From Prevotellaceae bacterium (GTDB lineage Bacteria > Bacteroidota > Bacteroidia > Bacteroidales > Bacteroidaceae): a stretch of DNA of 63,789 nt. The notes beneath the pieces were generated by a model that saw nothing but the letters and a program-made list of their open reading frames with translations, was not told the origin of the DNA and made no database searches. Position numbers and translations under genes: made by a program. The stretch is taken from positions 1 to 63,789 of the forward strand of contig JAUNOM010000010.1 of NCBI GenBank assembly GCA_030531085.1, read 5' to 3'. Shown here piece by piece: positions 31,444-57,943 of this stretch (positions are counted from its first letter, which is position 1; each line of letters begins with the position of its first letter).

Positions 31444-31862
31444 ACAGATTGTAAGTAAAATGGCCTTTTTACTTACAATCTGTATTTTCGAGACAGTCAC
31501 TTTCCCTTAGCGTTTTAGAGAAAAAGAAGTCCCTTTTCATGCTCTTCTATGACAGTAAATGTCGGTTCGTGTTGTAATTTGATGTAAATTGTATCGCAAT
31601 TTGATAGCTTTTGCATTGCAATTTGTATCAGATTACAATGTAAAAGCTATCAGATAACAGTGCGAAAGCATAGCTTTTGGTGCGCTTTTGTATGCAATTA
31701 CTTTTGTTGGAATAACTAAGTATCAGATTGCCAGTATGTTAATGTGATGCGCGGAGAATGCGCTGTACGCACTGACGATGAAACTTTTTTCAAATACGCG
31801 ATTCTCAGAGGGGTACGAAAATGCGGATTGTAAGTAAAAAGGCCATTTTAATAACAATTTGT
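31444..31862 (+). repeat. Hairpin-rich interspersed element, copy A
   Basis: About 420 bases without an ORF, between the 3' end of tex and the rpmB promoter and on the strand opposite to both genes. A perfect 17-bp 5' hairpin (31444-31460 with 31467-31483, loop TGGCCT) comes first. The conserved block CGTTTTAGAGAAAAAG follows near 31511. The central hairpin has arms 31598-31623 and 31631-31656 and a 7-base loop. The box TGCGCTGTACGCACTGA is at 31759-31775 with GAGAAT/ATTCTC around it. An imperfect 3' hairpin (about 31826-31858) repeats the sequence of the 5' one. Copies B and C lie at 45536 and 57521. It could be a structured RNA or a non-autonomous mobile element. Confidence 0.8.
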
Positions 31863-31888
31863 TACTTGTGTCTTTTTGTTGTCATCTG

Positions 31889-34021
31889 TTATTCAACACC
31901 TTTTCTTGACAGTGAGATACGGTTGCGTTTACGGTCTATGCCGATTACCTTTACATTTAAGTGCTGGTGTAGCTTTACTGCACTTGTCGGGTCACTGATA
32001 TATCTGTCAGACAGTTGTGATATGTGTATGAGGCCGTCCTGATGCACACCTATGTCAACGAATGCACCGAAGTTTGTTATGTTTGTGACGATACCGGGCA
32101 GCACCATTTCCTCTTCAAGGTCGTCAATGGTGTGAACGTGCTCGCTGAATGCGAATTCAGTGAGCTGTTCCCGCGGGTCACGCCCCGGCTTGTCCAGTTC
32201 CTTCATGATGTCCGTGATGGTAGGCATACCCACAGTGCCGTTGATGTATTTCTTTAGGTCTATGCTTTGGCGCTTTGATTTGTCTGCAATAAGCTCCCCA
32301 ACGGTACAATGGCAGTCTTTAGCCATTTGTTCAACAATCCCGTAACTCTCTGGGTGTACGGCGCTGTTGTCTAAAGGATTCCTTGCGCCGGGAATGCGCA
32401 GAAAGCCCGCGCATTGCTCAAATGCCATGGGACCTAACCTTGGAACTTTCTTCAGTTGTGCCCTGCTGCGGAATGCTCCGTTCTCATTGCGGTAATTAAC
32501 AATGTTCTGTGCCAGTGCGGGACCTAATCCGCTGATGTGTGTTAACAGGTGTCTGCTTGCGGTGTTGAGGTTTACTCCAACAGAGTTTACGCAACTTTCT
32601 ATCGTCATGTCGAGCGCCTTCTTCAGCAGGCTCTGGTCCACATCGTGCTGGTACTGTCCTATGCCAATGCTCTTGGGATCTATCTTCACTAATTCCGCCA
32701 TCGGATCCATTAGTCTTCGCCCTATGCTTACCGCTCCGCGTACTGTCACATCCTCGTTGGGAAATTCCTCCCGTGCTATTTGTGAGGCGGAGTAAACGGA
32801 TGCTCCATCCTCACTCACCACGAATACCTGCACGTCTTTTGTGCTGTTCAACTTTTTAATGAAACCTTCTGTCTCACGGCTTGCCGTGCCGTTGCCTATG
32901 GCTATGGCCTCGATGGCATAGTCTTTTATCATGTTTCCAATTATTGTGGCAGCCCGTTTGCAATCATTGTGGGGTGGGTTGGGGTATATCACATCATGAT
33001 GAAGCAGGTTGCCCTCGCTGTCAAGGCATACTGTCTTGCATCCGGTTCTGAAGCCCGGATCTATGCCCATGACCCTTTTCTGTCCTAAAGGAGCGGAAAG
33101 AAGTAACTGCCTCAGGTTCTCGGCGAAGACACTTATAGCCTCCTTGTCGGCCTTTTCTTTGCTGAGAGCGGCGAACTCTGTCTCTATTGAGGGCTTCAAT
33201 AGTCTCTTGTATGCGTCATGCACGGCCTCTTCCATGATATGCGTGCATTCGTTGTTGCCCCGCAGGTATATGCGTTTAAGGTCCTCAAGGCATCCTTCGT
33301 CATCCGGAGATATGCTGACTCTTAGTATGCCGTCGGCTTCCGCGCGTCGGATAGCAAGCAGACGGTGTGATGAACATCGCCTGAGCGGTTCGGAGAAATC
33401 AAAATAGTCAGAGTACTTTGCGGCCTCGTCTGTCTCGGCTTTTGCCTTTACTACTTTCGCTGTTATTGTGGCTTCGCGCTTGAATGCGCGGCGTAATGTG
33501 TTCCTCGCCTTCTCGTCTTCACTGATATTCTCGGCTATAATATCCATCGCCCCCTTTATGGCAGCCTCCTCGTCCTTTACGTTTGCGTTGATATATCGTC
33601 TTGCTGTACTTCTCGGATTACAGTCTTTTTGCATCCTGATGGTTATGGCGAGAGGCTCAAGTCCATTCTCGCGGGCGGTCTGTGCACGTGTGCGCCTTTT
33701 GGGTTTGTATGGCTGGTAGATGTCTTCCAATACAGTGGCATCCCAACACAGGTCCAGTCGTTGCTGTAGTTCTGGTGTCATTTTCCCCTGTTCCGTTATG
33801 GTTCTTATGACAGTCTCCTTGCGTTTGGCTATCTCTTTCAGCTTGTTGTTCATGTCACAGATTTCAGATATCTGCATTTCATCAAGTGCTCCGGTGCGTT
33901 CCTTCCTGTATCTGCTGATGAAAGGAATGGTGCATCCCTCCTCCAAAAGTTCCAGTGTGTTCTCTATTCTCTTTTCTGCCAACTGCAGTTCTTTGGCTAT
34001 TATATTTGTGAATATGTTCAT
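31889..34021 (-). CDS. tex: Tex-family RNA-binding transcription accessory protein
   Basis: 710 residues. The N-terminal helical Tex domain (ELQLAEKRIENTLELLEEGCTIPFISRYRKERTG begins it), a YqgF/RNase H-like domain with VMGIDPGFRTGCK, helix-hairpin-helix repeats (HISGLGPALAQNIVNYR, VPRLGPMAFEQCAGF) and a C-terminal S1 domain (PGIVTNITNFGAFVDIG) appear in the standard order. Tex binds nucleic acid and affects transcription in several bacteria. A minus-strand TACCTTTG lies 36 bases ahead. Confidence 0.96.
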   Translation of the reverse strand: MNIFTNIIAKELQLAEKRIENTLELLEEGCTIPFISRYRKERTGALDEMQISEICDMNNKLKEIAKRKETVIRTITEQGKMTPELQQRLDLCWDATVLEDIYQPYKPKRRTRAQTARENGLEPLAITIRMQKDCNPRSTARRYINANVKDEEAAIKGAMDIIAENISEDEKARNTLRRAFKREATITAKVVKAKAETDEAAKYSDYFDFSEPLRRCSSHRLLAIRRAEADGILRVSISPDDEGCLEDLKRIYLRGNNECTHIMEEAVHDAYKRLLKPSIETEFAALSKEKADKEAISVFAENLRQLLLSAPLGQKRVMGIDPGFRTGCKTVCLDSEGNLLHHDVIYPNPPHNDCKRAATIIGNMIKDYAIEAIAIGNGTASRETEGFIKKLNSTKDVQVFVVSEDGASVYSASQIAREEFPNEDVTVRGAVSIGRRLMDPMAELVKIDPKSIGIGQYQHDVDQSLLKKALDMTIESCVNSVGVNLNTASRHLLTHISGLGPALAQNIVNYRNENGAFRSRAQLKKVPRLGPMAFEQCAGFLRIPGARNPLDNSAVHPESYGIVEQMAKDCHCTVGELIADKSKRQSIDLKKYINGTVGMPTITDIMKELDKPGRDPREQLTEFAFSEHVHTIDDLEEEMVLPGIVTNITNFGAFVDIGVHQDGLIHISQLSDRYISDPTSAVKLHQHLNVKVIGIDRKRNRISLSRKGVE

Positions 34022-34056
34022 GTTAATCCTTTTCTTTTCTGTTATAGTTGGGAGTG

Positions 34057-34064
34057 CAAAGGTA
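34057..34064 (-). promoter_or_regulatory. -7 box for tex
   Basis: TACCTTTG on the minus strand; the -33 element is weak. Confidence 0.5.
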
Positions 34065-34102
34065 ATGATTTTTTGTTTTTCATGAAAAAAATCGTGACAA
34101 TA

Positions 34103-34134
34103 TTTGCATATATCCTAATATTTTCGTAACTTTG
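34103..34134 (+). promoter_or_regulatory. Promoter of the tRNA-Thr/tRNA-Gly pair
   Basis: TTTG (34103-34106), 20 bases, TAACTTTG (34127-34134). Exact consensus. Confidence 0.8.
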
Positions 34135-34153
34135 CAACCGCTAAATGGGACAG

Positions 34154-34226
<73 letters not shown>

Positions 34227-34320
34227 CCCCAAGGCGAACGGTAGAGGGATGAGTTGGCATTATATCATTTCATTGATGTTCTTCGTCTACTCACTCCTTT
34301 TTCTGTATATATAAACTATT

Positions 34321-34393
34321 GCGATAGTAGCTCAGTTGGTAGAGCACAAGCTTCCCAAGCTTGGGGTCACGGGTTCGAGCCCCGCCTATCGCT
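34321..34393 (+). tRNA. tRNA-Gly (anticodon CCC)
   Basis: 73 bases. Acceptor GCGATAG/CTATCGC, D arm GCTCAGTTGGTAGAGC, anticodon loop TTCCCAA with CCC at 34354-34356, T loop GTTCGAGCC. CCA not encoded. Shares the upstream promoter with tRNA-Thr. Confidence 0.97.
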
Positions 34394-34439
34394 CATAATG
34401 ACTGTCATTATTATATATAATGTGTAAGTTACGGAACAT

Positions 34440-34497
34440 GACTCAGGAAATGCTTATCTGACATTTGCAGAAACGCTTTCTTGAGTCTTTTGTTTTT
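34440..34497 (+). terminator. Terminator of the tRNA pair
   Basis: GACTCAGGAAATGC (34440-34453) pairs with GCTTTCTTGAGTC (34475-34487) with one bulge, then TTTTGTTTTT. Confidence 0.75.
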
Positions 34498-34526
34498 AAA
34501 GAATGTAGTAATAAAATTTAGGAACT

Positions 34527-35795
34527 ATGACTTCAATGCATTCACTATGCTCTATGTGTCTTAGGGCTGTAGCTTTATTTCTTGTGTCTGGTGGCTTGGC
34601 TGTGGAGACTGCCGCCAGGAGTTATTTTGTAGCTCCAGCCGGTGACGATGCTGGTAATGGAACAAAAGACCGGCCTTTTGCCACTTTTGGAAAGGCGCAG
34701 CAACTGGCGGAACCGGGCGATACAGTGTTTTTTAGGCAAGGGTTGTATCGTGTGAAGAATGATGAGATACAGTATTATAATGGCCGCTACGCTACAGTGT
34801 TTCATATAACCCGCTCAGGAAAAGAGGGGAGTCCCATTGTATTTACTGGATACAGGGATGAGAGGGCCGTATTTGATATGTCAGAAATAAATCCCGGTGA
34901 CTACAGACTGACGGGAATATTGCTGTCTGCGGACTATATTGTTATGAGACAGTTGGAGATTGTGGGGCTGAGAGTGTTGCAGAAGGGACATTCGCAGAGC
35001 GAGTGTGTACGTGTTCTTGAGGCAAGCCATTGTGTGCTTGATGATATGTCATTTCATGACGGTATGGCTATAGGCGTTTATCTGCTTGCCGGACATGATA
35101 ATCTTTTTGTGAATTGCGATGCCTATAATAACTATGACTATTATTCCGACAATGGATATGGAGGCAATACGGATGGCTTCGGGGCGCATTGCACTTCTGT
35201 AGAACATACGGGCAATGTGTTCAGAAAATGCAGGGCATGGTGGAACAGTGATGATGGATTTGATTTGATAAACTGTCTTGCGCCTGTTGTGATAGAGGAC
35301 TGTGTGGCATTCTATAATGGATTCCGCACAGGTACATTGCGCCCAGCCGGTGATGGTACTGGATTCAAGGCTGGTGGATATGGAATGAAGCCCCGTGCAG
35401 GAATGGTGCGTGATGTCGTGGAGGCACCGAGGCACGTGGTAAGACGTTGTATTGCGTACCGTAATAAGAATAAGGGTATATATGCCAACCATCATCTGGG
35501 AGGAGTGGAGTTTACGGATAATGTCTCTATAAGTAATCCGAGAAACTATACTATGCTGTGCAGAAAATCTGTCGATGAGGCTGTCGATGTGCCCGGATAT
35601 GGACATATATTAAGAAATAATATCTCCGTAACTCCGATAGGCAAAGGAAAGCATTATACAGATGTTGACATGGAGAAATGTGTCATGGAGAATAATTATA
35701 CAGAGGAGGACATACCTGTTGTGGACGGGAAACCGCTGTTTGACATAAATGCTTTTGTACCAGAAGACTATATACAAATACCAAATAAAAAGTAA
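34527..35795 (+). CDS. Secreted pectate lyase-like beta-helix protein (PL9-like)
   Basis: 422 residues: signal peptide, then YFVAPAGDDAGNGTKDRPF, the usual opening of secreted right-handed beta-helix enzymes. The helix carries GGNTDGFGAH and CRAWWNSDDGFDL near residues 210-245, whose Asp cluster matches the calcium site of PL9 pectate lyases such as PelL. It would cleave polygalacturonate by beta-elimination. Other genes of galacturonate metabolism in the window support this. Dipeptidyl peptidase III follows after eight bases. Confidence 0.82.
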   Translation: MTSMHSLCSMCLRAVALFLVSGGLAVETAARSYFVAPAGDDAGNGTKDRPFATFGKAQQLAEPGDTVFFRQGLYRVKNDEIQYYNGRYATVFHITRSGKEGSPIVFTGYRDERAVFDMSEINPGDYRLTGILLSADYIVMRQLEIVGLRVLQKGHSQSECVRVLEASHCVLDDMSFHDGMAIGVYLLAGHDNLFVNCDAYNNYDYYSDNGYGGNTDGFGAHCTSVEHTGNVFRKCRAWWNSDDGFDLINCLAPVVIEDCVAFYNGFRTGTLRPAGDGTGFKAGGYGMKPRAGMVRDVVEAPRHVVRRCIAYRNKNKGIYANHHLGGVEFTDNVSISNPRNYTMLCRKSVDEAVDVPGYGHILRNNISVTPIGKGKHYTDVDMEKCVMENNYTEEDIPVVDGKPLFDINAFVPEDYIQIPNKK

Positions 35796-35803
35796 ATTAC
35801 ATT

Positions 35804-37735
35804 ATGATACAATGTTCTGAACGCTTTGCGGATATACAGATGCTGCGCTATGAACTGCCAGCTTTTGATGAGCTTTCTGCCAGACAGAAGGCATACATAT
35901 ACTACCTTGCGGAGGCTACGCTGTGGGGGCGTGATATTACATTTGACCAGTATGGACGCTATAACCTTGTGATACGTAAGACACTTGAGGAGGTGTATCG
36001 CTTGATTGAAACCGAAGACTGTCAGGATGACAATGCAAAAGCACTTGTAGTTTATCTGAAAAGAGTGTGGTTCTCAAATGGTATTTACCATCATTATGGG
36101 TGTGAGAAGTTTGTACCAGAGTTCTCGCAGGAGTATTTTGAGGCGATGGTGCGCCGTGTAGACACTGATAAGTTACCGATGCCTGTTGATGATTTGTTGG
36201 AAACCATTATGCCTGTGATTTTTGATCCAACTTTTCTGCCGAAGCGAGTTAATAAGGCGCACGGTGAGGATCTTGTGATGACATCCGCTTGTAACTATTA
36301 TATAGGAGTGACGCAGAAAGAGGTGGAACAGTATTATGCGGCAAAGAAACAGGATGGAGAGCTGTGTCCGCCATCATACGGTCTTAACTCTACTTTGAGA
36401 AAGAATGCGGACGGTGAGCTGGTTGAGGATGTGTGGCGCCTGAATGGGAAATATGGCAGGACTATAGAACATATTGTTGAGTGCCTGAACAAGGCCGGTG
36501 AGTATGCGGAGAATGAAAGGCAGAAGCAGGTGATAGCACTGTTGGTGGATTATTATACAACAGGTGACCTGCGTACTTTTGATGCTTACTCGATAGAGTG
36601 GCTGAAGGAGATAGACGGGCATATAGACTTTGTGAATGGTTTTATAGAAGTTTATGGTGACCCGTTAGGCTTGAAGGCCACTTGGGAGGGTATAGTTGAG
36701 TATAAGGACATTGTTGCGTGCAGAAGAACACAGACCATCAGTGATAATGCGCAGTGGTTCGAGGACCATTCTCCTGTAGACCCACGTTTCCGTAAACCGA
36801 AAGTTAAGGGAGTGGTTGCTAATGCTATCTGTGCGGCTATGATTGGTGGTGAGGAGTATCCGTCAACTGCTATCGGTATAAACCTGCCTAATGCGGAATG
36901 GATTAGGGCGCAGCACGGCTCAAAGAGTGTGACGATAACGAATTTCACAGCTGCATATCAGAAGGCTGCAAAGGGTAATGGCTTTATGGATGAGTTTGTG
37001 CATGATCGTGATACTGTAGAGATAATACTTAAGTATGGTGAGGCTTGCGATGACCTGCATACTGACCTGCATGAGTGTTTGGGACATGGTAGCGGGCAGA
37101 TGATGCCGGGTGTGGATCCTGATGCTTTGAAAGCCTATGGCAGTACGATAGAAGAGGCAAGGGCAGACTTATTCGGATTGTATTACATTGCAGATAAGAA
37201 AATGTTTGAGTTGGGGCTGGTGCCGGATATGGAGGCGTATAAAGCTAACTATTATACATATATAATGAATGGCTTGCTTACGCAGATGGTCCGCATTAAG
37301 CCTGGTGATAATATAGAGGAGGCACACATGCGTAACCGTGCGCTAATATCTAATTGGTGTTATCAGCATGGGGATGGATGTGTGGATCTTGTAAAGCGTA
37401 ATGGAAAGACTTATCTTGTGATTAACGATTACCGGAAGTTAAGAAGTCTCTTTGCGGAACTTCTTGCTGAAGTGCAGCGTATAAAGAGTGAGGGTGATTA
37501 TGAGGCTGCAAGGGCACTTGTGGAGGATTATGGTGTCAGAATAGACACCGCTTTGCATAATGAGGTGTTGGAGAGGTATAGAAGTCTTGATATTGCTCCG
37601 TATAAGGGATTCCTTAATCCTAAGATGACTTTGGTACGCAATGACGATGGGGAAATTGTTGATGTGAATTTGGATTTTACAGAGACAATGGTACAGCAGA
37701 TGATGCGTTATTCCCGTGATTACAGTGTGGAGTGA
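35804..37735 (+). CDS. Dipeptidyl peptidase III (family M49)
   Basis: 643 residues, a zinc exopeptidase that removes dipeptides from the N-terminus of short peptides. The zinc motif HECLGH (about 423-428) has Cys where eukaryotic enzymes have Leu, the bacterial M49 form, and EEARAD (about 450) supplies the third ligand. There is no signal peptide, so it is probably cytoplasmic. It follows the pectate lyase gene by eight bases, though the functions look unrelated. Confidence 0.95.
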   Translation: MIQCSERFADIQMLRYELPAFDELSARQKAYIYYLAEATLWGRDITFDQYGRYNLVIRKTLEEVYRLIETEDCQDDNAKALVVYLKRVWFSNGIYHHYGCEKFVPEFSQEYFEAMVRRVDTDKLPMPVDDLLETIMPVIFDPTFLPKRVNKAHGEDLVMTSACNYYIGVTQKEVEQYYAAKKQDGELCPPSYGLNSTLRKNADGELVEDVWRLNGKYGRTIEHIVECLNKAGEYAENERQKQVIALLVDYYTTGDLRTFDAYSIEWLKEIDGHIDFVNGFIEVYGDPLGLKATWEGIVEYKDIVACRRTQTISDNAQWFEDHSPVDPRFRKPKVKGVVANAICAAMIGGEEYPSTAIGINLPNAEWIRAQHGSKSVTITNFTAAYQKAAKGNGFMDEFVHDRDTVEIILKYGEACDDLHTDLHECLGHGSGQMMPGVDPDALKAYGSTIEEARADLFGLYYIADKKMFELGLVPDMEAYKANYYTYIMNGLLTQMVRIKPGDNIEEAHMRNRALISNWCYQHGDGCVDLVKRNGKTYLVINDYRKLRSLFAELLAEVQRIKSEGDYEAARALVEDYGVRIDTALHNEVLERYRSLDIAPYKGFLNPKMTLVRNDDGEIVDVNLDFTETMVQQMMRYSRDYSVE

Positions 37736-37763
37736 TTGATTTCGGAAAGTGGGGCAGGACTTG

Positions 37764-40763
37764 TCAGGCAGTGGCTCTTGGCAGCACTATTGTTATGACA
37801 GCCTGACCGTCTGATATGCTTGCTGATATGCCACAGTTATAATGCAGGGACGTGTTTGTCGTCTCGCGTATGATCTGACGCATGATAAGGAAGTCTACAT
37901 CGGGCGTGGATGTTGAGAACAATACGTTAATGGAGGGTAGCAGTTGCTGCCCTCTTTCCATTATAAAGGATATGGATACATAATTGGTGTCGGTTTGAGA
38001 TATGGTGGAGTGGGGAAGTCTTCCGCCATTGTGGCGTTTCAATAATAGGCACAGATATGCCATTAGTTCTTTGTTTGCTGTTATCGTAAGGCCCTCTTGA
38101 CAATCAGAAGGGTGGAATGTCTCTGATACAGAGAGGTGCTCTATTGGGAATGTATATGCAGATAGCTGTTTGTTCAGAACCTGCGTGGTGAGCAGGCTGT
38201 ATAAAGTACGGTAATAAGAAACTGTGTTTGATATATCGGAATTGTTGCTTTTATTACTTATGAGTTGGCGTATGCGCGTGGGATAATACATTGTCTCATG
38301 TTTCAATGTTGACAGCTGGTTGTCCGTTATATTATTAATAAGGTGTAGGTGTTCGTATTCTGATTGCTTGTGTAGAATAATATCTTTGATGTTTCTTAGC
38401 TGTTCGTGTGTCTGTTTGCGTTGTTGCAGGACGTGCCTAAGATAAACAAACCAGAATATAGGAACGAAAGCGACCAGTAATAAAAATGATATAAGCAAGG
38501 CAATGTTTGCCTTTTGCTCGTTGTGTTCCATTGTTTGGCAGTATGTTGCCAAGCTGTTGTCTGATGTATGTTGTTTATATAGGTTTGTGTACAGATAGTT
38601 GTAATAAGTATACTCTTTCCAACGGTGCAGTGCAAGACACGCTACCGCAGTCTCATTATATAGTGAAAGTCTGATACCTATGTCAACGGAATCATTGTGT
38701 TCTACTATAACAAGACATGAATCAGCATAGACCATAGCGTCGTCATACCGTCCTTCTATATTTGCAATATACAGCGAGTCGCACAGTCTGGCAGCAGTGT
38801 CATTATATGAATGGTTTGTCGCATTGGCTGGTGAATTATAGGATAGTAGCATTGCTATGATGATGACGATGGCCTTTAATACCAATGGAAGTCTGAAGGC
38901 GATGGTGGTGCCGCGTCCGATAATTGATGAGGCGCTTATGGAACATACAGAGAATAGGGAGGATAGCTTGCGGTAGCGATCCATTATGCCGCGACAGTTG
39001 GCAAGTCCGAAGCCATGTGATTTGGAATAACTGTCATCGTTTATAGTCTTGTATTCAAATAGATGTTCAATCTGTTCCTGCTTTATACCGTGTCCATTGT
39101 CTTTTACGCGGATTTCGCAATAGTGCTCGGAGGTATTAGCGGTACATTCTATTTGTATTGTACCGTCATCACTGTTGATAGCATTGCGTGCATTTGATAT
39201 AAGTGTGTTGAGTATAAATACGGTAAGTGTTTTATCTGCTTTGACACTTATGTCAGTTTCTGGAACTTCCAATGTTATGCCTTGTCTGGATAGAAGTGAG
39301 GAGTTTTTAGTTATGATGTCAAAGACGCTCTGTAGCTTAAATGTTTCAATACGTGGTTGTATGACACCGCAGCGTAATTTGATCCACTTTGTAAGCATAG
39401 CATTCTGTGTGTCTATTTCTTCGGAAAGCTCTGCCGCATAAGTAAAATCCCTTTTCTCTATGGCAAGACTCATACGGTCAATTAATGGTAGCATACCGCT
39501 AACCACAGATATGCGTGCACGCTGTTCTACTGCAGAACGTATTGTGTTCGATAGGTTCAGTTCCGTTTTTTGTAATCTTTCCTGTTCGTGTTCTATTTGG
39601 ATGCTGTTCCCGTTATAACCTTTTCTGCGTTGTCTTATGTATAATGTGATTGTTATTATACATAAAATTAAAAATGTGGTAATGGCTATAGTGACATTAT
39701 GCCAAATATGTGTAGTTGATTCCTGTATTGATATGGCGCGTGCTTCAAGTTCTTTGTCTTGGCGTATGCTGTCCTGCAAGTCAAGGTATATATTGCGGTA
39801 ATAATCACTATTGCGCTTGTTGTCTGTGGCGGCGAATGATAATGATAACATTTCACAGACAGTGGCTCGTAATCCCGGCATATTGTCTGTTTCGGGATTG
39901 GCAAGCGCCATGTCAAGACATTCAATGGCGCGGATGGCATTGCCAATTTTAAAATAGCATTGTGCCAGTGTGCGCCATGCTATGGATGTGTTGTATGCGT
40001 CACCCAATGTGAGCATAATGTTCAGGGAACGCTCTGCAAGATTTCCGGCGAGCATACTGTCTGGCATGGCGTCTTCATTTATATATCTTAATGAAGCACG
40101 GTCGTATTTATTGGCCAGTGCCATAATGCTGTCATTAAGTAAATACATACTTAGTACCTGCATGGCAAGCGCTTTATATAATGGGTTGTCAGTGCGTGTC
40201 GCCAGGATATAGCATTGCATAGCGCAGTCGAAACTGTTTATAATGCTATGCTTGTGTTTCTCTATATTATATGGTCGGTAGTTAATGCGTCCTTGATGGT
40301 ATAGGAAGTCAAGCCATAGTGTGGTGTCACTGTAAAGGTTTAATGTAGTGTTGGAGGATAATTCCTTCATTACGTCACGTGCATCGCCGTATCTTCCCAC
40401 CTGCCATAGATAATCTGCCATGGCGAATGCCTTTCCTGCATGTGCCTGAGCATACAGACGCTGTCCGTATGAAGATAGTGTGCCAGCATCATCAAAGCGT
40501 GCCAGTATTTTCTCCGCATTATATTTATGTAGATAGAAATCTCTGTTTTGCCCCTTTATACAGCAGCTGTCCATAAGTTTTGTCTCACTAATGGCCGTTT
40601 GGAGAAGGCTTACAGTGTTAGGGTCTTCTTCTTCTTCAGAATGACAGGAGAATAGTATTGTTGTAAAACATAATATGCTCCACAATGGTATGAATACCTT
40701 TGTGGAGCATATAACATAATATCTAAATGAATAATTACGCACGGGCTGCTGCGCAATATCCAA
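37764..40763 (-). CDS. Lipoprotein-type sensor histidine kinase with a second, degenerate sensor half (DUF5112/DUF5113 type)
   Basis: 999 residues. The N-terminus has a lipoprotein-like signal (LFSC near residue 40). A TPR-like periplasmic sensor follows, then a membrane span (about 354-374), a coiled coil and an HATPase domain: N box [12 protein letters not shown]1 DNGHGI, G2 [12 protein letters not shown]. No conventional phospho-acceptor His is visible in the dimerisation region. After residue 625 a second signal-like hydrophobic segment, another short TPR part, a second span (about 767) and a degenerate ATPase-like domain follow. The start lies within the last codons of eda (29-base overlap), and no other ATG precedes the signal peptide. 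Confidence 0.85.
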
Positions 40764-45488: not shown

Positions 45489-45535
45489 GTGGTGAAATTA
45501 AGTTTGAAAAGCGCTTGTCACACCAATGCACCATT

Positions 45536-45960
45536 TTGACAAAATGTTACTTTTTTGCCACTTTTGGTGACGTTTTGCTTTTTTGAAAATGTCGACCTCA
45601 CTTTGCATTCTGGAGAGAAAGTAGTCGTTTTTTATCGTTTTAGAGAGCGGGAAAAATGGCTTCGCGCGCAATTTGATGCTGATTGCGGTGTAATCTGATA
45701 GTTATTACAGTGCTATTTGTATGTGATTACCATCCAAAAGCTATCAGATTACAGTGCAATAACGGCTCTTTTGTGGCGGTTTTATATGCTTTAAGAATGT
45801 GCTGTTTTGTTAATTAGATGACTGTTAATATGTTATGAATTGACACAGGATTGCGCTGTACGCACTGAAGTAAAAATAATTTTCAAATATCCGATTCTAC
45901 GAGGGGGATGAAAAATCAAAGTGTCAGAAAAAACACGATTTTTCTGACACTTTGATTTTT
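45536..45960 (+). repeat. Hairpin-rich interspersed element, copy B
   Basis: Same architecture and strand as copies A and C. The 5' hairpin (about 45537-45578) keeps pairing partly through G-U wobbles. The block TTTGCATTCTGGAGAGAAAG is followed by the central hairpin with arms 45692-45717 and 45725-45750; the lower 12 positions pair, including one T-G, and the upper part is decayed. The box TGCGCTGTACGCACTGA is at 45852-45868. A 22-bp perfect 3' hairpin (45911-45932 with 45939-45960) has A and T runs, and its arms are identical to those of copy C. It lies between the uxaA terminator and the ABC-F promoter. Confidence 0.85.
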
Positions 45961-46035: not shown

Positions 46036-47713
<1,678 letters not shown>

Positions 47714-48465: not shown

Positions 48466-48488
48466 ATAGGTGTATAAAAGCAGAGACA

Positions 48489-49685: not shown

Positions 49686-49701
49686 ATAAAACATAGGCAA
49701 T

Positions 49702-51051
49702 ATGACATATTTTGAGACATTGGCCTATCTATATAACGCAGCGCCTGCCTTTGAAAAGGTGGGCGCTGGTGCGTATAAGGAAGGTCTTAGTAATACTCTC
49801 GCATTGGATGAGCATTTTGGACATCCGCATCGGCGATACCATACAATACATGTTGCAGGAACAAATGGTAAAGGTTCTGTGTCGCATACTTTGGCGGCAT
49901 TGCTGCAGGCGGCAGGATATAGAGTGGGATTATATACTTCACCTCATCTCGTAGATTTCAATGAACGCATTCGTGTAAATGGTAAACCGATTGAACATGA
50001 GTATGTTATTGGTTTTGTAGAGAAAGAACGCAGTTTCTTTGAGCCTTTACATCCGTCATTCTTTGAACTGACTACGGCAATGGCATTTAAATATTTTGCT
50101 GACAGCGCAGTGGATATAGCGGTGGTAGAGGTCGGGCTTGGTGGAAGGCTTGACTGTACAAACATTATAAATCCTTTACTTAGTGTTATAACTAATATTT
50201 CTTTTGACCATACGGCGTTTCTTGGGACGACCTTGTCTCAGATTTCTACAGAGAAAGCAGGAATAATAAAGGAGGGAGTTCCCGTTGTGATAGGGGAGCA
50301 TACAGGGGAGACGAGAGTGGTGTTTGAGAGGGTAGCTGCAGAGAAAGAAGCACCAATTATATTTGCGCAGGATAATCGGTATGTGGAAAGTAGCGAGGAG
50401 GAGAATGCTGGAAGACTCTATAAAACAAACTGTTTTGGTGTGTTGCACGGTGCTCTTGGAGGAGATTGCCAGGAAAAGAATATGAATACAGTGTTGAATT
50501 GTCTTCTGCCTTTAGCGAGAGCAATGCGGAGGGCCGGGCTTCCTTTGTTGAAAATAGATGCGGATAATCAATGCAAAGTAACAGGGCTGATGGATGTTGT
50601 CCGTAAAGCAGTAGAGGGTGTCGTGGATATGACGGGCCTTTGTGGACGTTGGCAGACTATAAGTGCACGTCCACTTGCTATTTGTGATACGGGGCATAAT
50701 TTGGCTGGCTGGCAGTATCTGGCTAAACAGATTGTGAATACGGCGATTCGGAAAAAGAAGGAAAATCCATTAAGTCAGTTACGGATAGTGTTTGGCATGG
50801 TAGATGACAAGGATGTGGACTCTGTATTGGAATTATTGCCTAAAAATGCTATCTATTATTTTACACAAGCGTCAACACATCGGGCAATACCTGTTGTGGA
50901 ACTTCAGCGGCTTGCTTTATCTAAAGGGTTGAAAGGAATTGCGTATCTAACTGTTAAAGAGGCTTATGATGCGGCAAATGCTGACAGTAAGGATTGTGAT
51001 TTCATATTTGTAGGAGGTAGCAGTTATGTTGTCGCAGATTTATTGTCGTAA
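49702..51051 (+). CDS. folC: Folylpolyglutamate / dihydrofolate synthase
   Basis: 449 residues, Mur-ligase-like. P-loop VAGTNGKGSVSHTLAALL near residue 54, VVEVGLGGRLDCTN near 145, and the C-terminal glutamate ligase domain ending FVGGSSYVVADLL. Adds glutamates to folates. Starts 17 bases after dnaJ. Confidence 0.95.
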   Translation: MTYFETLAYLYNAAPAFEKVGAGAYKEGLSNTLALDEHFGHPHRRYHTIHVAGTNGKGSVSHTLAALLQAAGYRVGLYTSPHLVDFNERIRVNGKPIEHEYVIGFVEKERSFFEPLHPSFFELTTAMAFKYFADSAVDIAVVEVGLGGRLDCTNIINPLLSVITNISFDHTAFLGTTLSQISTEKAGIIKEGVPVVIGEHTGETRVVFERVAAEKEAPIIFAQDNRYVESSEEENAGRLYKTNCFGVLHGALGGDCQEKNMNTVLNCLLPLARAMRRAGLPLLKIDADNQCKVTGLMDVVRKAVEGVVDMTGLCGRWQTISARPLAICDTGHNLAGWQYLAKQIVNTAIRKKKENPLSQLRIVFGMVDDKDVDSVLELLPKNAIYYFTQASTHRAIPVVELQRLALSKGLKGIAYLTVKEAYDAANADSKDCDFIFVGGSSYVVADLLS

Positions 51052-51069
51052 GATATTTTTCGCATAATG

Positions 51070-51101
51070 TTTGGTTGTTTGAAAAAAAATGTTTAAATTT
51101 G
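51070..51101 (+). promoter_or_regulatory. Promoter of purA
   Basis: TTTG (51070-51073), 20 bases, TAAATTTG (51094-51101). Exact consensus, with a leader of about 90 bases. Confidence 0.8.
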
Positions 51102-51198
51102 CACGGTTGTTATGTAGTTATAGCTTTTTTACAGATGTAGTTCTGATTGAATTGCTGCTGCATTTAAGAAATTGTAATACTTTAAACAAAATACTATT

Positions 51199-52470
51199 AT
51201 GACAGGTAAAGTCGATGTGCTCCTTGGTTTGCAGTGGGGCGATGAAGGTAAAGGAAAAGTTGTTGATGTGCTCACACCCAAGTATGATGTGATAGCACGC
51301 TTTCAGGGTGGCCCAAATGCAGGACATACGTTAGAGTTTAATGGTGAAAAGTATGTGTTGCGTTCAATACCGTCAGGCATATTCCAGGGTGGTAAGGTGA
51401 ATATAATTGGTAATGGAGTTGTTCTTGCTCCGGATCTTTTTATGGATGAGGCTAAGGATTTGGAGAAGAGTGGACACGATTTGAAGTCTCGTCTCCATAT
51501 ATCAAAGAAAGCACATCTTATAATGCCTACACACCGTGTTCTCGATGCAGCGATAGAGGCTTCTAAGGGTAAGGATAAGGTTGGCACAACAGGTAAGGGT
51601 ATCGGTCCTACTTATTCTGATAAGATTGCACGTACAGGACTGCGTGTAGGCGATATCCTTGATAATTTTGAGGAAAAGTACGCAAAGCATAAAGCGCGTC
51701 ACGAGGAACAGTTGCGTGCCATGAATTATACTGACTATGATATTACTGAAGTCGAGAATAAATGGCTTGAGGGAGTGGAGTATCTTAAGCAGTTTAAGAT
51801 TGTAGACTCAGAGCATGAGGTGAACAAAACCCTTAAATCAGGAAAGTCAATACTTTGCGAAGGTGCGCAGGGTACTATGCTTGATGTGGATTTCGGCTCT
51901 TATCCATTTGTTACTTCAAGTAATACAATATGTGCTGGCGCTTGTACAGGTCTTGGTCTTGGTCCAAATAAGATTGGTGAAGTGTATGGAATAATGAAGG
52001 CTTACTGTACACGTGTGGGCGCAGGACCTTTCCCTACTGAACTGTTTGATGAGACTGGACAGAAGATGCGTGATATAGGCCATGAGTATGGGGCTGTGAC
52101 AGGACGTGAGCGCCGTTGTGGTTGGATTGACCTTGTGGCGCTGCGCTATTCTATAATGGTGAATGGCGTTACTCAGCTTATAATGATGAAGAGTGATGTC
52201 CTTGACACATTTAAGACAATAAAGGCTTGTGTGGCATATAAAGTTAATGGTGTTGAGACACCAGACTTCCCCTATGATATAGAGAAAGGTATAGAACCTG
52301 TTTATAAGGAACTTAAGGGATGGCAGACAGATATGACAAAGATGACATCAGAGGATGAGTTCCCACAGGAGTTTAAGGATTACATAGCATTCCTTGAGAC
52401 GCAACTTGAGACACCAATAAAGATTGTGTCAATAGGACCGGACCGTGAACAGACTATAGTAAGAAAGTAA
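51199..52470 (+). CDS. purA: Adenylosuccinate synthetase
   Basis: 423 residues, joins IMP and aspartate with GTP in AMP synthesis. Family blocks: QWGDEGKGKVVDVL at the N-terminus (catalytic Asp), GPNAGHT near residue 37, GTTGKGIGPTYSDK near 130 and GRERRCGWIDL near 300. hisS begins six bases after the stop. Confidence 0.98.
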   Translation: MTGKVDVLLGLQWGDEGKGKVVDVLTPKYDVIARFQGGPNAGHTLEFNGEKYVLRSIPSGIFQGGKVNIIGNGVVLAPDLFMDEAKDLEKSGHDLKSRLHISKKAHLIMPTHRVLDAAIEASKGKDKVGTTGKGIGPTYSDKIARTGLRVGDILDNFEEKYAKHKARHEEQLRAMNYTDYDITEVENKWLEGVEYLKQFKIVDSEHEVNKTLKSGKSILCEGAQGTMLDVDFGSYPFVTSSNTICAGACTGLGLGPNKIGEVYGIMKAYCTRVGAGPFPTELFDETGQKMRDIGHEYGAVTGRERRCGWIDLVALRYSIMVNGVTQLIMMKSDVLDTFKTIKACVAYKVNGVETPDFPYDIEKGIEPVYKELKGWQTDMTKMTSEDEFPQEFKDYIAFLETQLETPIKIVSIGPDREQTIVRK

Positions 52471-52476
52471 TCTATA

Positions 52477-53856
52477 ATGGCACAGAAACCAGGAATACCA
52501 AAGGGTACACGTGATTTCTCCCCTGTGGAGATGTCTAAGCGTAACTATATTTTCAATACAGTCAGGAGTGTTTTTGAACTCTATGGCTTTAGGCAGATAG
52601 AGACTCCAGCCATGGAGAACCTTTTTACCTTGATGGGAAAATATGGCGAGGAAGGTGATAAGCTCCTTTTCAAGATCTTGAATTCCGGTGATTTCCTCCA
52701 TGGAATGACTGCTGATGAAGTCGCTAATACATCAACATTAAAGTTGGCGGCAAAGTTCTGCGAGAAAGGACTACGCTATGATTTGACAGTCCCATTTGCC
52801 AGGTATGTAGTACAGCATCGTGAGGAGTTGCAGTTGCCATTCAAACGTTATCAGATACAGCCGGTTTGGCGTGCGGACAGACCACAGAAGGGACGTTATC
52901 GTGAGTTCTACCAGTGTGATGTTGATGTTGTTGGCTCTGATTCATTATTGAATGAGGTGGACCTGATGCAGATAACCGATACAATATTCAGTAAGTTCGG
53001 TGTCAGGGTTCAGATTAAGATAAACAATCGCAAGATACTTACTGGCATAGCAGAGGTTATTGGTGAGTCAGATAAGATTGTGGACATCACTGTAGCCATA
53101 GACAAACTGGACAAAATAGGTCTTGATGCTGTAAATGATGAATTGAGACAGGACGGTATAGCTGAAGAGGCTATAGAGAAGTTGCAGCCAATAATAAAGC
53201 TTGAGGGCACTAATGCACAAAAACTTGACACTATAGCAGTTCTGTTGAAAGACTCCGAGATAGGTATGAAGGGTGTTGAGGAGATGAGGTATATCCTTGG
53301 AATACTCGGCGCACTTGATAGTTCTAAGGGAATGTTGAATAACGAATTGCAGCTTGACCTTACGCTGGCTCGTGGCCTTAATTATTATACCGGTGCCATT
53401 TTTGAGGTGAAGGCCCTTGATGTACAGATAGGAAGTATCACAGGTGGCGGAAGGTATGATAACCTTACGGGCATCTTTGGTATGCCGGGACTTTCAGGTG
53501 TCGGAATATCATTCGGTGCTGACCGCATATATGATGTCCTGAACCAGCTTGATTTGTATCCAAAGGAGGCGGTGCATGGTACAGAACTGCTCTTTATCAA
53601 CTTTGGTGAGCGTGAGACTGCCTATTGCATACCTATAGCCGCAGCGGCTCGAAAAGCTGGAATAAGGACAGAAGTGTATGCGGATGCTGTCAAGATGAAG
53701 AAGCAGATGTCCTATGCTAATGCGTTATCCATACCTTTTGTAGCTCTCGCAGGAGAGAATGAGATGGCTGAAGGCAAGGTAACATTAAAGAATATGATAA
53801 CAGGTGAGCAGAAACTCCTTGATGTGGAAGAACTTATAAAATGTATAAAAGGATGA
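52477..53856 (+). CDS. hisS: Histidyl-tRNA synthetase
   Basis: 459 residues, class II. Motif 2 shows [20 protein letters not shown]; the histidine loop ARGLNYYTG and motif 3 with [11 protein letters not shown] follow; the C-terminal anticodon-binding domain is present. Linked to purA upstream by a six-base gap, and its stop overlaps the acetylesterase start (ATGA). Confidence 0.98.
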
Positions 53857-54860
53857 AGATGAACAAGGTTTATTCAAGACTGGCAGCCTTAGTAATACTG
53901 ATGTCATTGCTGTTTACAATGACATCAAGCAACAGGCGTATTACAATATTCATGATAGGCGATTCCACTATGGCCAATAAGGATATAAAGAAAGGACCGG
54001 AACGTGGCTGGGGAATGGCTTTGCAAGGCTTTTTCACAGAGAATGTGGTTGTGGACAATCATGCGTTGAACGGACGTTCATCACGTAGTTTCATCCTTGA
54101 GGGACATTGGAAGAAAGTGTATGATGCAATGAAACCCGGCGATTACCTTGTTATACAGTTCGGCCATAATGATGAGAAGGGCAAAATAGGGGACAGACGT
54201 CATACAGATGCGGGGTTAACCCTTGATGACAACTATCGTATGTTTGCCAGAGCAGCACAGGAAAAGGGAGCAACGCCTATAATAATGAATGCTGTTGTGC
54301 GTCGTAATTTCTATAAAAAGCCAGACCTCGGTGTTGACGATGAGTCTTTACGCAATGTAGCATACAAAGAGGAGAATGTGAACAGTGACACATTGATAGA
54401 CACACACGGTAACTATATCCTCACTCCACGCAATGTGGCACTTATGATGCGTGTGCCATACGTGGACGCAAACAAGATAACGCACGATATAGAGCAGTCC
54501 ATGGGCATTGAGGGAAGCCGTAAACTCCATATGTGGATAAAGCCTGGAGAGTACGGAATAGCGAAAGGCCGTCAGGACAATACACATTATAATGTCTATG
54601 GCGCCCATGTTGTGGCCTCACATCTTGTTGATGCCATGGCAGAAGTTTGTCCAGAATTAAAACCTTATGTCCGCCATTACGATTATATAGTGTCTGCATT
54701 GGGCAAGGGTAATTACATGACTCTGCAGGAAGCGGTTGATGCTGTACCGTCAGGAAAGTCGGCTACCATCTCTGTGATAGATGGTAAATGGGCTAAACCG
54801 AACATTCCAAAGAATAAGAGAATAAAGATAGTCAAATACAGTACTGTCGTAATCAAATGA
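53853..54860 (+). CDS. Rhamnogalacturonan acetylesterase (CE12, SGNH) with a pectin-methylesterase remnant
   Basis: 335 residues from the ATG at 53853, which overlaps the hisS stop. After a signal peptide come the SGNH blocks: MIGDSTM (Ser38), NGRSSRSF (73-80), FGHND (104-107) and DNTHYN (D242, H245), the CE12 set. It removes acetyl groups from rhamnogalacturonan. The last 60 residues ([20 protein letters not shown], then PKNKRIKIV) resemble the first strand turns of a CE8 pectin methylesterase, which then breaks off, so the protein looks like a truncated CE12-CE8 fusion. Confidence 0.9.
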
Positions 54861-54876
54861 TTTTTTAGGAAATAAT

Positions 54877-55584
54877 ATGAAACAAAATAGTCTTATATGC
54901 AGTTCGCTAATCATTGCTGTCGGTATGGTGGTAATGGGCTTTTCGATACGCAGTGGCATTGTCACATTCAAGGACATGGACCGGAGCGTTGTTGTGAAAG
55001 GTCTGGCTGAGCGAGAGGTCAAGGCGGATAAGGTCACATGGCCTTTGGTGTACAAGGAGTTGGGCAATGATCCTTCCGAGATGTACAATACACTTGAGAT
55101 GAAGAACCAAAAGGTGGTGAATTTTCTTAAAGGTGCGGGCATCAAGAGTGAGGAGATAAGCGTCAATCCACCCGTAATCTCGGACCGTCAGGCCGATAAC
55201 TATGGCAATGAGATTATGAACTACCGATATAAGGCTACAAGTGTTATCACAGTCATCTCATCTGATGTGGACAAAGTCCGACAGCTTATGAGAAGGCAGA
55301 CAGAACTTATGCGGCAGGGCATAGCCATTGTTAGTGAGGAGTATGGTTCAAATGCTGTGAGGTATGAGTTCACAGGGCTAAACAGCATTAAGCCTGGAAT
55401 GGTAGAGGAAGCGACAAAGAAGGCCAGGGAGACTGCGCAGAAGTTTGCAGAGGACTCCGAGTCCACATTGGGAGGAATCAAAAGCGCACAGCAGGGACAG
55501 TTCTCCATCGAGGATCGTGATGCCAACTCACCATATATAAAAAGAGTACGAGTTGTTACGACTGTAGACTATTCTTTGGAATAG
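54877..55584 (+). CDS. SIMPL-domain (DUF541) protein
   Basis: 235 residues with one N-terminal hydrophobic segment (ICSSLIIAVGMVVMGFSI, anchor or signal) and the SIMPL fold: VVKGLAEREVKADKVTWPL, then YRYKATSVITV and ARETAQKFAEDSESTLGGI. Periplasmic; the function of the family is not settled. 16 bases after the acetylesterase. Confidence 0.9.
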   Translation: MKQNSLICSSLIIAVGMVVMGFSIRSGIVTFKDMDRSVVVKGLAEREVKADKVTWPLVYKELGNDPSEMYNTLEMKNQKVVNFLKGAGIKSEEISVNPPVISDRQADNYGNEIMNYRYKATSVITVISSDVDKVRQLMRRQTELMRQGIAIVSEEYGSNAVRYEFTGLNSIKPGMVEEATKKARETAQKFAEDSESTLGGIKSAQQGQFSIEDRDANSPYIKRVRVVTTVDYSLE

Positions 55585-55640
55585 AATATACTATAGTGTT
55601 ATAAACATTTGTAACTTATAATCATCTAAATAACATAACA

Positions 55641-56090
55641 ATGTCAATTTTCGACCAAATTTCAAAAGATATCATCGCGGCAATGAAGGCGAAGGATGCT
55701 GTGAGGCGCGATGCTCTACGCAATGTGAAGAAAGTGTTCCTCGAGGCAAAGACTGCTCCGGGCGCTGGTGACGAGCTGTCCGATGTTGATGCCATGAAAA
55801 TCCTACAGAAGCTGGCAAAGCAGGGTAGAGAGGCTGCGGACATTTTCATTCAACAAGGAAGACAGGATCTTGCTGACGCAGAGCTGGCACAGGTTGCAGT
55901 CTATGCTGACTATCTGCCCAAGCAGCTTTCCGACGCAGAGTTGGAGGTGGAAGTCAAGGCTGTAATCGAAGAGATTGGAGCCACATCTATTAAGGAAATG
56001 GGAAAGGTCATGGGACTCGCTACGAAGAAGCTCTCTGGCAGAGCTGACGGGCGTGCTGTGAGTGAATGCGTAAAGAGACTATTATCATAA
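55641..56090 (+). CDS. GatB/YqeY-domain protein
   Basis: 149 residues, all helical: SIFDQISKDIIAAMKAKD, then RQDLADAELAQV and the C-terminal TSIKEMGKVMGLATKKLSGRADG block shared with the tail of GatB. It is a stand-alone YqeY protein, thought to bind tRNA by analogy; activity unknown. Confidence 0.93.
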   Translation: MSIFDQISKDIIAAMKAKDAVRRDALRNVKKVFLEAKTAPGAGDELSDVDAMKILQKLAKQGREAADIFIQQGRQDLADAELAQVAVYADYLPKQLSDAELEVEVKAVIEEIGATSIKEMGKVMGLATKKLSGRADGRAVSECVKRLLS

Positions 56091-56185
56091 CGTAGTGCAT
56101 TCACTCGTAATTCTTATTTACCTGATAACTGAGATTTTTTATAATATATTTTTTTATTTGTCTAATACCAATTAAGTGTTACAAG

Positions 56186-57460
56186 ATGAACAAAAATTAT
56201 CTTTTTGTGGCAGCAGTGGCCATGTGCGCTGCTTGTCAGTCTGACCATGAAGACAGTGAAGGTGTTTCTAACGGTTCCATGCACAAGGTGTATCTTACGG
56301 CCAATGCAGTCATTGGGGGGGGTGACCTTGTGTATCCTATTACTGTTTATGCTTATGACAGTAATAATGCTGTGGCGGCGCAGCAGACGATAAACAGTCC
56401 AGAAGATGGCATATCGATGAGACTTAAGACCGGACAGTACACCATTTCGACAGTCAGTGGCAGCACAGACTTCTCCAAAGGATATACCACGACTCCGCTA
56501 ATGATGGGAACAAAGCAGATAAGCCTTACTTCTGACATCGCAGAGGATATAGCGATGCAATACAAGGTGGCTTCTGTCAATGTTGTATTGACGGATGTCA
56601 GACCTGAGGCCACGAGTGTCAGCATCAGTTTAGCACCACTATATGGAAGTATCAATAACAAAGGGGAACTTAGTGGAAGCGTGGAGCCTATGTTGGAATG
56701 TACAAAGTCTGCTGATGGCACATGGACTACCGGAACATTCTATGTGCTACCCAGCATAAACACCACTCCTGTTCTCACCATAAAGCAGACATTGTCATCT
56801 GGAAAGACAGAACTCTCACATAAGACTATTAAGCAGATTGTGGCCGGCACGCCATATTTATATAAAGCCCAATACGATAAAAATTCGACACATTATATAT
56901 TGACATTGACTATTTCTGGTGCTACGTGGGGCGAGGGCGCCACAGAGACGTTCGTGTTCGGAGAGGATGACAGTAGCATAGACACCCCAGTTACGCCTGG
57001 AACTCCTGATACTCCAGACACTCCTGTAACGCCATCTTCGATAAAGGCAGGTACAATATGGAATGGTCATATTGTAGCACTGGTGAATGGAAATACCGCT
57101 ACATTGTTAAGTAAGAAGGAATGGGACTTGGCAGATGTTGATGTCCTGCCGACAGATGAGATTGCCGCATATTCAGAAGACGGTATGACAGGTTGGACTT
57201 TGCCTACAGAAGAGCAAGGAAAGACTATTGCTGAGACATATCATCGTGTAGATGACAATCCAAATTATGCTAACCTTAATTCTGTGTTGGAAGCTAATGG
57301 CTTGACAAAAATACAGGATAGTAAGGATGATATAAAATATTTATGCGGTGATGGAACTACCGCATATTCCTATATAAATTTCTCTCGACTGGTGGGTACC
57401 AGTGATAAGACTCGCGATTACCGCATTCGATTGATAAAGACAGTGACGGTCAGTGAATGA
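56186..57460 (+). CDS. Fimbrillin-like surface lipoprotein with a Pro/Thr linker
   Basis: 424 residues. The lipoprotein signal ends AMCAAC (Cys15). The N-terminal half is all beta and looks like the FimB/Mfa2 group (PITVYAYDSNNAV, MRLKTGQYTISTVSG). A PVTPGTPDTPDTPVTP linker (about 273-288) leads to a C-terminal domain of about 130 residues with GWTLPTEEQGKTI. A run of eight G at 56315-56322 lies early in the gene, so slippage could switch it off. Followed by element copy C. Confidence 0.75.
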   Translation: MNKNYLFVAAVAMCAACQSDHEDSEGVSNGSMHKVYLTANAVIGGGDLVYPITVYAYDSNNAVAAQQTINSPEDGISMRLKTGQYTISTVSGSTDFSKGYTTTPLMMGTKQISLTSDIAEDIAMQYKVASVNVVLTDVRPEATSVSISLAPLYGSINNKGELSGSVEPMLECTKSADGTWTTGTFYVLPSINTTPVLTIKQTLSSGKTELSHKTIKQIVAGTPYLYKAQYDKNSTHYILTLTISGATWGEGATETFVFGEDDSSIDTPVTPGTPDTPDTPVTPSSIKAGTIWNGHIVALVNGNTATLLSKKEWDLADVDVLPTDEIAAYSEDGMTGWTLPTEEQGKTIAETYHRVDDNPNYANLNSVLEANGLTKIQDSKDDIKYLCGDGTTAYSYINFSRLVGTSDKTRDYRIRLIKTVTVSE

Positions 57461-57520
57461 TAGTATGCTTTGAGATAAAACAATCCCTCTTGCAGCTACA
57501 AAAGTGAGAGAGGCGATTTT

Positions 57521-57943
57521 GACAAAACGTAAGCAAAAAGGCCTTTTTGCTTACGTTTTGCTTTTTCGGAACTTTCGACTTCACCTTGCATTTTAGAGAG
57601 AAAGAGGCCGTTTTTTAGTCCTTGAAATAACGTTTTCTATACGTTCGCGCGCAATCTGATAGCTTTTACTCTGCAATCTCTATCATATTGCATTGCTATT
57701 TGTATCTGATTGCAGAGTAAAAGCTATCAGATTACAGCGGTTTTAAGGCTCTTTCTGTATGCTTTTACACATTGATTAAAAGGTGAATTTAGATAAAGTT
57801 AAGATAATCAGATGATTTTGTAAAGTGCGGAGAATGCGCTGTACGGGCCCATAGGAAAATAATTTTGAAATAAACGATTCTCAGAGGACTTGAAAAATCA
57901 AAGTGTCAGAAAAACACCTCTTTTTCTGACACTTTGATTTTTT
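57521..57943 (+). repeat. Hairpin-rich interspersed element, copy C
   Basis: The best-formed copy. A perfect 38-base palindrome at 57523-57560, centred on GGCC, comes first. The block TTGCATTTTAGAGAGAAAG lies near 57587. The central hairpin has perfect 26-bp arms 57653-57678 and 57708-57733 and a 29-base loop, where copies A and B have seven bases. The box TGCGCTGTACG is at 57835-57845, with AGAAT/ATTCT flanks (57831-57835 and 57877-57881). The 3' hairpin is a perfect 22 bp (57893-57914 with 57921-57942) ending in T residues. It lies between a lipoprotein gene and the uxaB promoter. Confidence 0.88.

Follow-up and report, generated by a model that had tools for sequence, protein, structure and literature searches.

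A dispersed family of large, modular non-coding elements in a Prevotellaceae genome and its possible link to RAYT-like transposases

The contig JAUNOM010000010.1 of a Prevotellaceae bacterium (GenBank assembly GCA_030531085.1), analyzed here as a stretch of 63,789 nucleotides that we call the window, carries three copies (A, B and C) of a non-coding element of about 420 bp that is bounded by hairpins and contains an array of 22-bp units. These copies belong to a dispersed mobile family that is real, large, modular and non-coding. The family is most likely a new, oversized relative of the repetitive extragenic palindromic (REP) elements, moved in trans by an enzyme resembling the REP-associated tyrosine transposases (RAYTs), a reading to which we assign a probability of roughly 0.45; the enzyme and the role of the array are what we infer. 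Using a covariance model (R1) that covers the right-hand 136 positions and was built from 40 copies, we found 50 distinct matches of at least 67 bits in the organism's own draft genome (2.37 Mb in 61 contigs, 81% complete), by arithmetic about 1% of the genome (50 x 420 bp in 2.4 Mb), while a BLAST search with copy C returned 116 matching pieces. Forty copies, including those in the window, were fetched first with their flanks and the remaining ten afterwards; 37 of the 50 make up the main alignment, which leaves aside three longer variants and the ten later-fetched copies.

The closest pairs of copies are 94.1, 93.7, 92.3 and 89.9% identical and have the same sharp ends between unrelated flanks, which indicates copying of a discrete unit. 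A search for target duplications in 40 copies (k = 2-12) found none, with direct matches no longer than under shuffled pairing, where 152 of 200 shuffles scored equally high or higher; from old insertions a duplication could have been lost. The 5' flank shows a soft preference for AAAnGCCCA, reaching 0.9 bits per position in 32 copies with no shuffled control, and the 3' flank reaches 0.7 bits at scattered positions (27 copies). We compared the 40 own sites with part of the copies in two relatives, UBA3627 and G001, counting matches above 45% identity, and four of the 79 flank proteins had a match in the fetched loci. The flank gene of locus L021 is the only one directly beside an element in the other species, where it faces the other end, and for L028, L032 and L007 about 2 kb separate the match from the element in the other genome.

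The sequence-only reading had counted three copies, all on one strand. Both statements hold within the window, whereas the genome-wide count is 50 and the strand looks random, with 21 copies on the plus and 29 on the minus strand and adjacent copies in the same orientation in 13 cases and in opposite orientation in 12. An oriented chromosomal site, one of three identities proposed in that reading, is therefore rejected. Orientation against neighboring genes was taken from a crude open reading frame (ORF) caller and is approximate (at copy A it picked a 109-amino-acid ORF in place of rpmB): 5' neighbors are in the same direction for 20 copies and opposite for 20, and 3' neighbors are the same for 15, opposite for 24 and missing for one. 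Twenty-seven of the 40 copies overlap no kept ORF of at least 80 amino acids, and the other 13 overlap ORFs from this caller. A Pfam scan of 69 flank proteins, with 10 of the 79 left out as shorter than 140 amino acids, gave 129 families; among the 25 listed, most are metabolic or housekeeping and none occurs in more than two members. The element is thus not the leader of one gene class, as had been suggested from copy A. The remaining proposals were a structured RNA family and a hairpin-mobilized non-autonomous element, and the latter is the best of the three options, given the near-identical copies with sharp ends at unrelated loci, the few sites shared between species among the loci compared, and the occurrence of elements beside RAYT-like genes.

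RAYT-like matches are present in 11 of 12 genomes, the own genome giving a C-terminal fragment only. Out of 20 such places we examined 15, namely 14 genes in relatives and the own fragment, and an element lies alongside on the same strand at four of the 14 genes and not at the own fragment. In UBA3627 (contig C37) the element starts at the stop codon of the RAYT-like gene; it lies about 60 bp upstream of the gene in G134 (C133) and about 300 bp upstream in G572 (C32), and in G566 (C52) an array with the right module lies about 250 bp upstream. These adjacent elements were detected with models not trained on them (L191, E 5.8e-9; L185, E 1.1e-5; L182, E 6.4e-26; L169, E 7.6e-10). About 0.2 RAYT-adjacent elements would be expected, an estimate made at own-genome density. 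In G001, the contig ends about 270 bp away from the ortholog of the G566 gene. Across eight aligned RAYT-like proteins, neither the HUH residues nor the tyrosine motif varies. Compared with PDB at E up to 1, the RAYT profile matches five sequences and no others, all named transposase (E 0.14-0.17), which we take to be of IS200/IS605 type. The RAYT-like (IS200-type, Y1 HUH) transposase would act in trans on the end hairpins in single-stranded DNA and would paste the element without target duplication. Other RAYT-like genes adjoin short tandem repeats of their own (such as GAGGATAAAATCCTCGTGAAATAAACGGGAC), upstream of the gene in L190 and L188 and downstream in L183; different RAYTs may serve different repeats.

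Several observations weigh against this reading. The own genome, in its 81%-complete draft, has no intact RAYT gene beyond the C-terminal fragment, ten of the 14 examined genes have no element in the stretch searched, and RAYT-like genes are present, too, in relatives where few elements or none were detected. The four RAYT proteins encoded beside elements fall short of the NCBIfam cut-off, and three of these match no Pfam family at E 0.01, the other matching Y1_Tnp just below its cut-off. The GT[AG]G tetranucleotide was found at the hairpin foot in none of 40 copies in the stretch tested. No empty sites were identified for copies B and C, since their flanking genes never occur together on one contig among the matches listed from eight relatives, to which assembly fragmentation may contribute. 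Some sites may be old and shared: in G691 and G566 a free-standing 22-bp array (L077 1249-1362; L099 3220-3327) immediately precedes the ABC-F gene, the position that copy B has here, with none in the other 27 loci scanned except one weak match in L100. In addition, element length has been kept while the copies diverged to 60% identity, which is not expected of simple neutral transposon debris.

In the window, a whole-element profile that was seeded with the three copies and then refined against the genome locates them at 31443-31866, 45538-45959 and 57521-57941. Each is on the plus strand and within a few bases of the ends first proposed. Their likeness spans the full length and is not limited to the hairpin arms, with nhmmer E-values of 1e-82 to 3e-105 that are inflated because the profile contains these copies. 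Independently of the profile, BLAST with copy C against the own genome found copy B at 5.5e-39 over about 398 bp; copy A as a whole is absent among the matches listed. Pairwise identity is 60.5-63.7%, moderate as had been judged by eye, and exceeds the maximum of 57% (mean 51%) from aligning copy A with 20 shuffles of copy B. The earlier observations that the copies share one order of parts and carry no ORF are borne out, no ORF of at least 80 amino acids overlapping any of them, and an Rfam scan at the gathering threshold matched no family to the three. Copy A is flanked by the 3' end of tex and by the start of rpmB; the two genes are on the minus strand, and the copy is indeed antisense to both neighbors. 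Copy B is upstream of an ABC-F gene. Elsewhere in the window, Rfam RF04319 (FopS, a paralogous Bacteroidetes small RNA family) matches at 4899-4973 on the minus strand.

From 5' to 3', the element starts with TTTTGA and an end hairpin, continues with a TTTTAGAGAG or TTCTGGAGAG box and a variable stretch, has a middle of four or more roughly palindromic 22-bp units followed by a TAAC..GTTA motif, and closes with CGGAGAATGCGCTGTACG, AATAATTTT, CATTCTCCG, an end hairpin and TTTT or AAAA. A TTTAGAG box lies left of the 22-bp units, and a CTGTACG box between the TAAC..GTTA motif and AATAATTTT. The features of the three copies are as follows.

31443-31866, plus strand: copy A, whole element with class-2 ends (TTGTAAG/CTTACAA type; nhmmer profile E 1.2e-82, alignment)
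31444-31483, plus strand: copy A, 5' end hairpin ACAGATTGTAAGTAAAA..TTACTTACAATCTGT (from the sequence)
31510-31526, plus strand: copy A, GCGTTTTAGAGAAAAAG box (from the sequence and alignment)
31573-31680, plus strand: copy A, central array of 22-bp palindromic units, approximate limits (autocorrelation peak at lag 22 in 37 own copies)
31751-31770, plus strand: copy A, GCGGAGAATGCGCTGTACGC box
31823-31862, plus strand: copy A, 3' end hairpin
45538-45959, plus strand: copy B, whole element with class-1 ends (nhmmer E 1.1e-98); TTTT at 45534-45537 is part of the shared 5' boundary
45540-45577, plus strand: copy B, 5' end hairpin CAAAATGTTAC..GTGACGTTTTG
45605-45621, plus strand: copy B, GCATTCTGGAGAGAAAG box
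45667-45760, plus strand: copy B, central 22-bp array, approximate limits
45856-45862, plus strand: copy B, CTGTACG box, 22 bp ahead of AATAATTTT
45911-45960, plus strand: copy B, 3' end hairpin AAAATCAAAGTGTCAG..CTGACACTTTGATTTT
57521-57941, plus strand: copy C, whole element with class-1 ends (nhmmer E 2.6e-105), the BLAST query that revealed the family; TTTT at 57517-57520 is part of the shared 5' boundary
57523-57560, plus strand: copy C, 5' end hairpin CAAAACGTAAGCAAAAA..TTTTTGCTTACGTTTTG
57588-57604, plus strand: copy C, GCATTTTAGAGAGAAAG box
57652-57738, plus strand: copy C, central 22-bp array, approximate limits
57827-57845, plus strand: copy C, GCGGAGAATGCGCTGTACG box
57893-57942, plus strand: copy C, 3' end hairpin

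Two end classes exist in the own genome: class 1 has CAAARYGTCAC, and class 2, of the TTGTAAG/CTTACAA type, is found in copy A, L006, L014 and L028, and at both ends in L116-L121 and L125. The two ends of an element have weak terminal similarity to each other. Three longer copies of 525-587 bp (L015, L034 and L036) have the same ends around a different centre, and about six of the 50 copies are truncated or clearly degenerate (L012, L025, L027, L038, L123 and L124). The own genome also has a stand-alone array of 22-bp units without the rest of the element (L035 3152-3310) and two solitary end hairpins with no element between (L126 2827-2890; L122 7011-7064).

Over the 666 pairs of the 37 aligned copies, mean identity is 60%, yet there are only 2.8 gap events per pair. 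The CTGTACG box and AATAATTTT are 22 bp apart in 43 of the 45 copies having both anchors, and the step from AATAATTTT to the 3' hairpin measures 69 or 70 in 41 of 43. Measured in 47 copies (three of the 50 are without an anchor), the array-bearing stretch is 248-251 bp in 29, 261 in one, 269-271 in 12, and 197, 206, 351 or 414 bp in the other five. In UBA3627, where both ends and the core were present in 15 of the 20 fetched loci, the end-to-end distance is 356/357 in 12 and 345/346 in three; in G001, the box is 58 from the right end in 18 of 19 copies, and the left stretch of the 15 copies with an anchor measures 239, about 260, about 272, about 284 or 304. Spacing shifts between copies thus come mainly as steps of about 11 or 22 bp. 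The autocorrelation has a peak at lag 22 in each of three species (0.48, 0.57 and 0.62 in 37, 16 and 10 copies), where the mean over all lags is about 0.26. Steps of this size fit whole turns of DNA; since gain and loss of units explains part of them, helical phasing is something we infer, although unit turnover leaves the scarcity of indels in the right-hand module unexplained. The 22-bp array is probably helically phased and bound by a protein. With two helical turns per unit, it would carry that protein facing the same helix side as the end complexes, and because the two would have to share a helix face, spacing would move mostly by whole turns.

Homologous elements extend beyond the own genome. 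In a DNA pattern search, UBA3627 (Prevotellaceae) has 15 stretches that fit the core, and RGIG10298 (Prevotella sp., yak rumen) has one. UBA3627, which identical hit coordinates equate with G748, also has the top match to the ABC-F gene (81%) among 398 same-genus genomes, the own excepted. Its elements end in the AATAGGACATTTTTGTCAT type, and these ends form direct repeats of ATAGGACATTTT type that keep a fixed spacing and have TTTT and AAAA spacers in alternation. At E 1e-4, model R1 matched UBA3627 eight times and RGIG10298 not at all, though one stretch there fits the core pattern; at E 0.001 it gave 38 matches in G001 and 31 in G748, many of them hairpin halves, and over 399 genomes of the family it matched six, of which the five besides the own are weak. 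A sequence-only model of three species (R2) adds G366 plus weak matches in G311, G403, G436 and G472, so that 12 of the 399 genomes, the own among them, have a match; six of the 12 belong to other genera, where the matches are marginal and we do not regard them as members. A full-length multi-species profile found elements outside its training in fetched loci of G008, G572, G754 and G566, with no matches in 62 reversed decoys, and the own-genome profile detected the element in G134. Homologous elements therefore exist in at least eight related genomes (G001, G748, G366, G008, G572, G754, G566 and G134), with the layout conserved between species, the sequence much less so, and different end sequences. 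An earlier DNA search of 150 same-genus genomes, with four candidates scored per genome at a strict threshold, returned the own genome only; as later models found elements in G001, G008 and G134 of that set, this negative reflects a sensitivity limit. In G515, of another genus, a repeated TCGCGAATATCGCGCTGTACGAGC, often near contig ends, weakly matches the core model (L196, L206, L212, L216 and L219) and is possibly a separate repeat.

The hairpins bear on whether the element works as RNA or as DNA. By most measures, their covariation exceeds that in shuffles and in slid controls: in set A2 (inner stem and 3' hairpin), 22 cells have double changes versus 5.8 in shuffles, and in set A3 40 versus 19.7, with a less clear result for A2 pairs with a double change (7 versus 4.1, and 25 of 500 shuffles as high). 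Such compensatory changes would suit structured RNA genes transcribed from the plus strand of each copy, and by eye the 3' hairpin with its T-run could end transcription in the own genome. In the 5' hairpin, G-U outnumber A-C mismatches by 30 to 15, about half of this coming from one column pair. The ratio is reversed in the 3' hairpin (9:13; outer pairs 2:8) and the inner stem (12:22), and at the four innermost positions of the 5' stem the pairing is lost in 14 to 17 of 39 copies. Without an overall wobble preference, we take the palindromes to act as DNA; with the UBA3627 3' end not terminator-like by eye and no Rfam match, an RNA gene family is very improbable, and this proposal of the sequence-only reading is not supported overall. 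A DNA-based alternative is a miniature inverted-repeat transposable element (MITE) or miniature integrative element mobilized by a DDE transposase or tyrosine recombinase with shared ends. The weak similarity of the two ends and the two end classes in one genome would agree with this, and the spaced direct-repeat ends of UBA3627 could be recombinase core sites. We nevertheless consider it rather unlikely, given the lack of a target duplication in 40 copies; end-hairpin matches, by eye, pair at element spacing except for the two solitary ones, and no longer, gene-bearing copy appeared among the 150 of 585 candidates scored. Among the loci examined there is no insertion sequence with these ends. 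The IS256_Zn transposase was considered as a parent and rejected as a coincidence: neither the own draft nor that of UBA3627 has a match to it, and its intact copy in G001 lacks the module. In G447 (L194 422-514), a core-like stretch with a weak R2 match abuts a truncated IS256_Zn transposase gene.

Alternatively, the element could be a host-functional chromosomal DNA element, such as a nucleoid- or replication-related binding platform, which was spread long ago by transposition and is now kept copy by copy, with the phased 22-bp palindromes as operator-like sites for a host protein. The few gap events at 60% identity, the small number of decayed copies, the phased array in three species, the placement among ordinary genes and, in two relatives, the arrays ahead of the ABC-F gene speak for such a function. 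The few shared sites among the loci compared, the absence of polarity and the variation of end sequences both between species and within the own genome speak against it, and the near-identical pairs point to continuing copying, so that we hold this explanation to be unlikely.

Compared with known systems, the family shares most with the RAYT (TnpA-REP) substrates, that is REP sequences, bacterial interspersed mosaic elements (BIMEs) and paired REP hairpins (REPINs): many extragenic copies without genes, some beside a RAYT-like gene, end hairpins kept by compensatory change, and a conserved length between the ends. For REP-type elements, PMC3116915 stresses the length and hairpin capacity of the spacer. 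A REPIN consists of two inverted palindromes at a conserved distance; here the distance is conserved, but the ends are direct in UBA3627. The present element also differs in size (about 420 bp versus tens of bp), in being directional with distinct left and right modules and an internal 22-bp palindromic array, in having no GT[AG]G foot, and in that no cognate RAYT was found in the own genome. A 2018 study (PMC6006769) mentions 'atypical secondary structures' beside Bacteroidetes RAYT genes (subclass 2.6), with copies elsewhere in the genome. Those RAYT-like genes are likewise flanked by unusual multi-copy structures, which may or may not be our element; the study gives them a few sentences, and the word Prevotella does not figure in its main text. 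BrickBuilt, a MITE of Porphyromonas gingivalis (PMC4596501), resembles it as an intergenic, multi-copy element with a leader, a short tandem repeat array and a tail, but has 23-nt units, a terminal repeat GAGACCTTCGCA that is absent from all 40 copies here, and both ends intact in four of 19 copies, whereas most copies here are complete and the units are 22 bp and roughly palindromic. Phage and plasmid searches with one copy as query and a search of viral contigs with one exact pattern gave no match, and none of the papers listed in literature searches on Prevotella repeats, MITEs and intergenic or non-coding repeats describes such an element in its title or abstract. The initial impression of an undescribed family, with no Rfam match either, thus largely stands, those few sentences of PMC6006769 being the nearest account found.

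Judging by titles and abstracts, large non-coding repeats of the Prevotella group are little covered in the literature. The element is a candidate substrate for the poorly known Bacteroidetes RAYT enzymes, and its spacing rule makes the helical phasing model directly testable. A further and more doubtful idea is that the element forms a phase-locked nucleoprotein machine, in which end palindromes and the 22-bp operator-like array would lie on one helix face, species-specific end and unit sequences would evolve in concert, and selection would keep most copies intact. If true, RAYT-moved DNA would have been recruited as a genome-wide architectural element in Prevotella.

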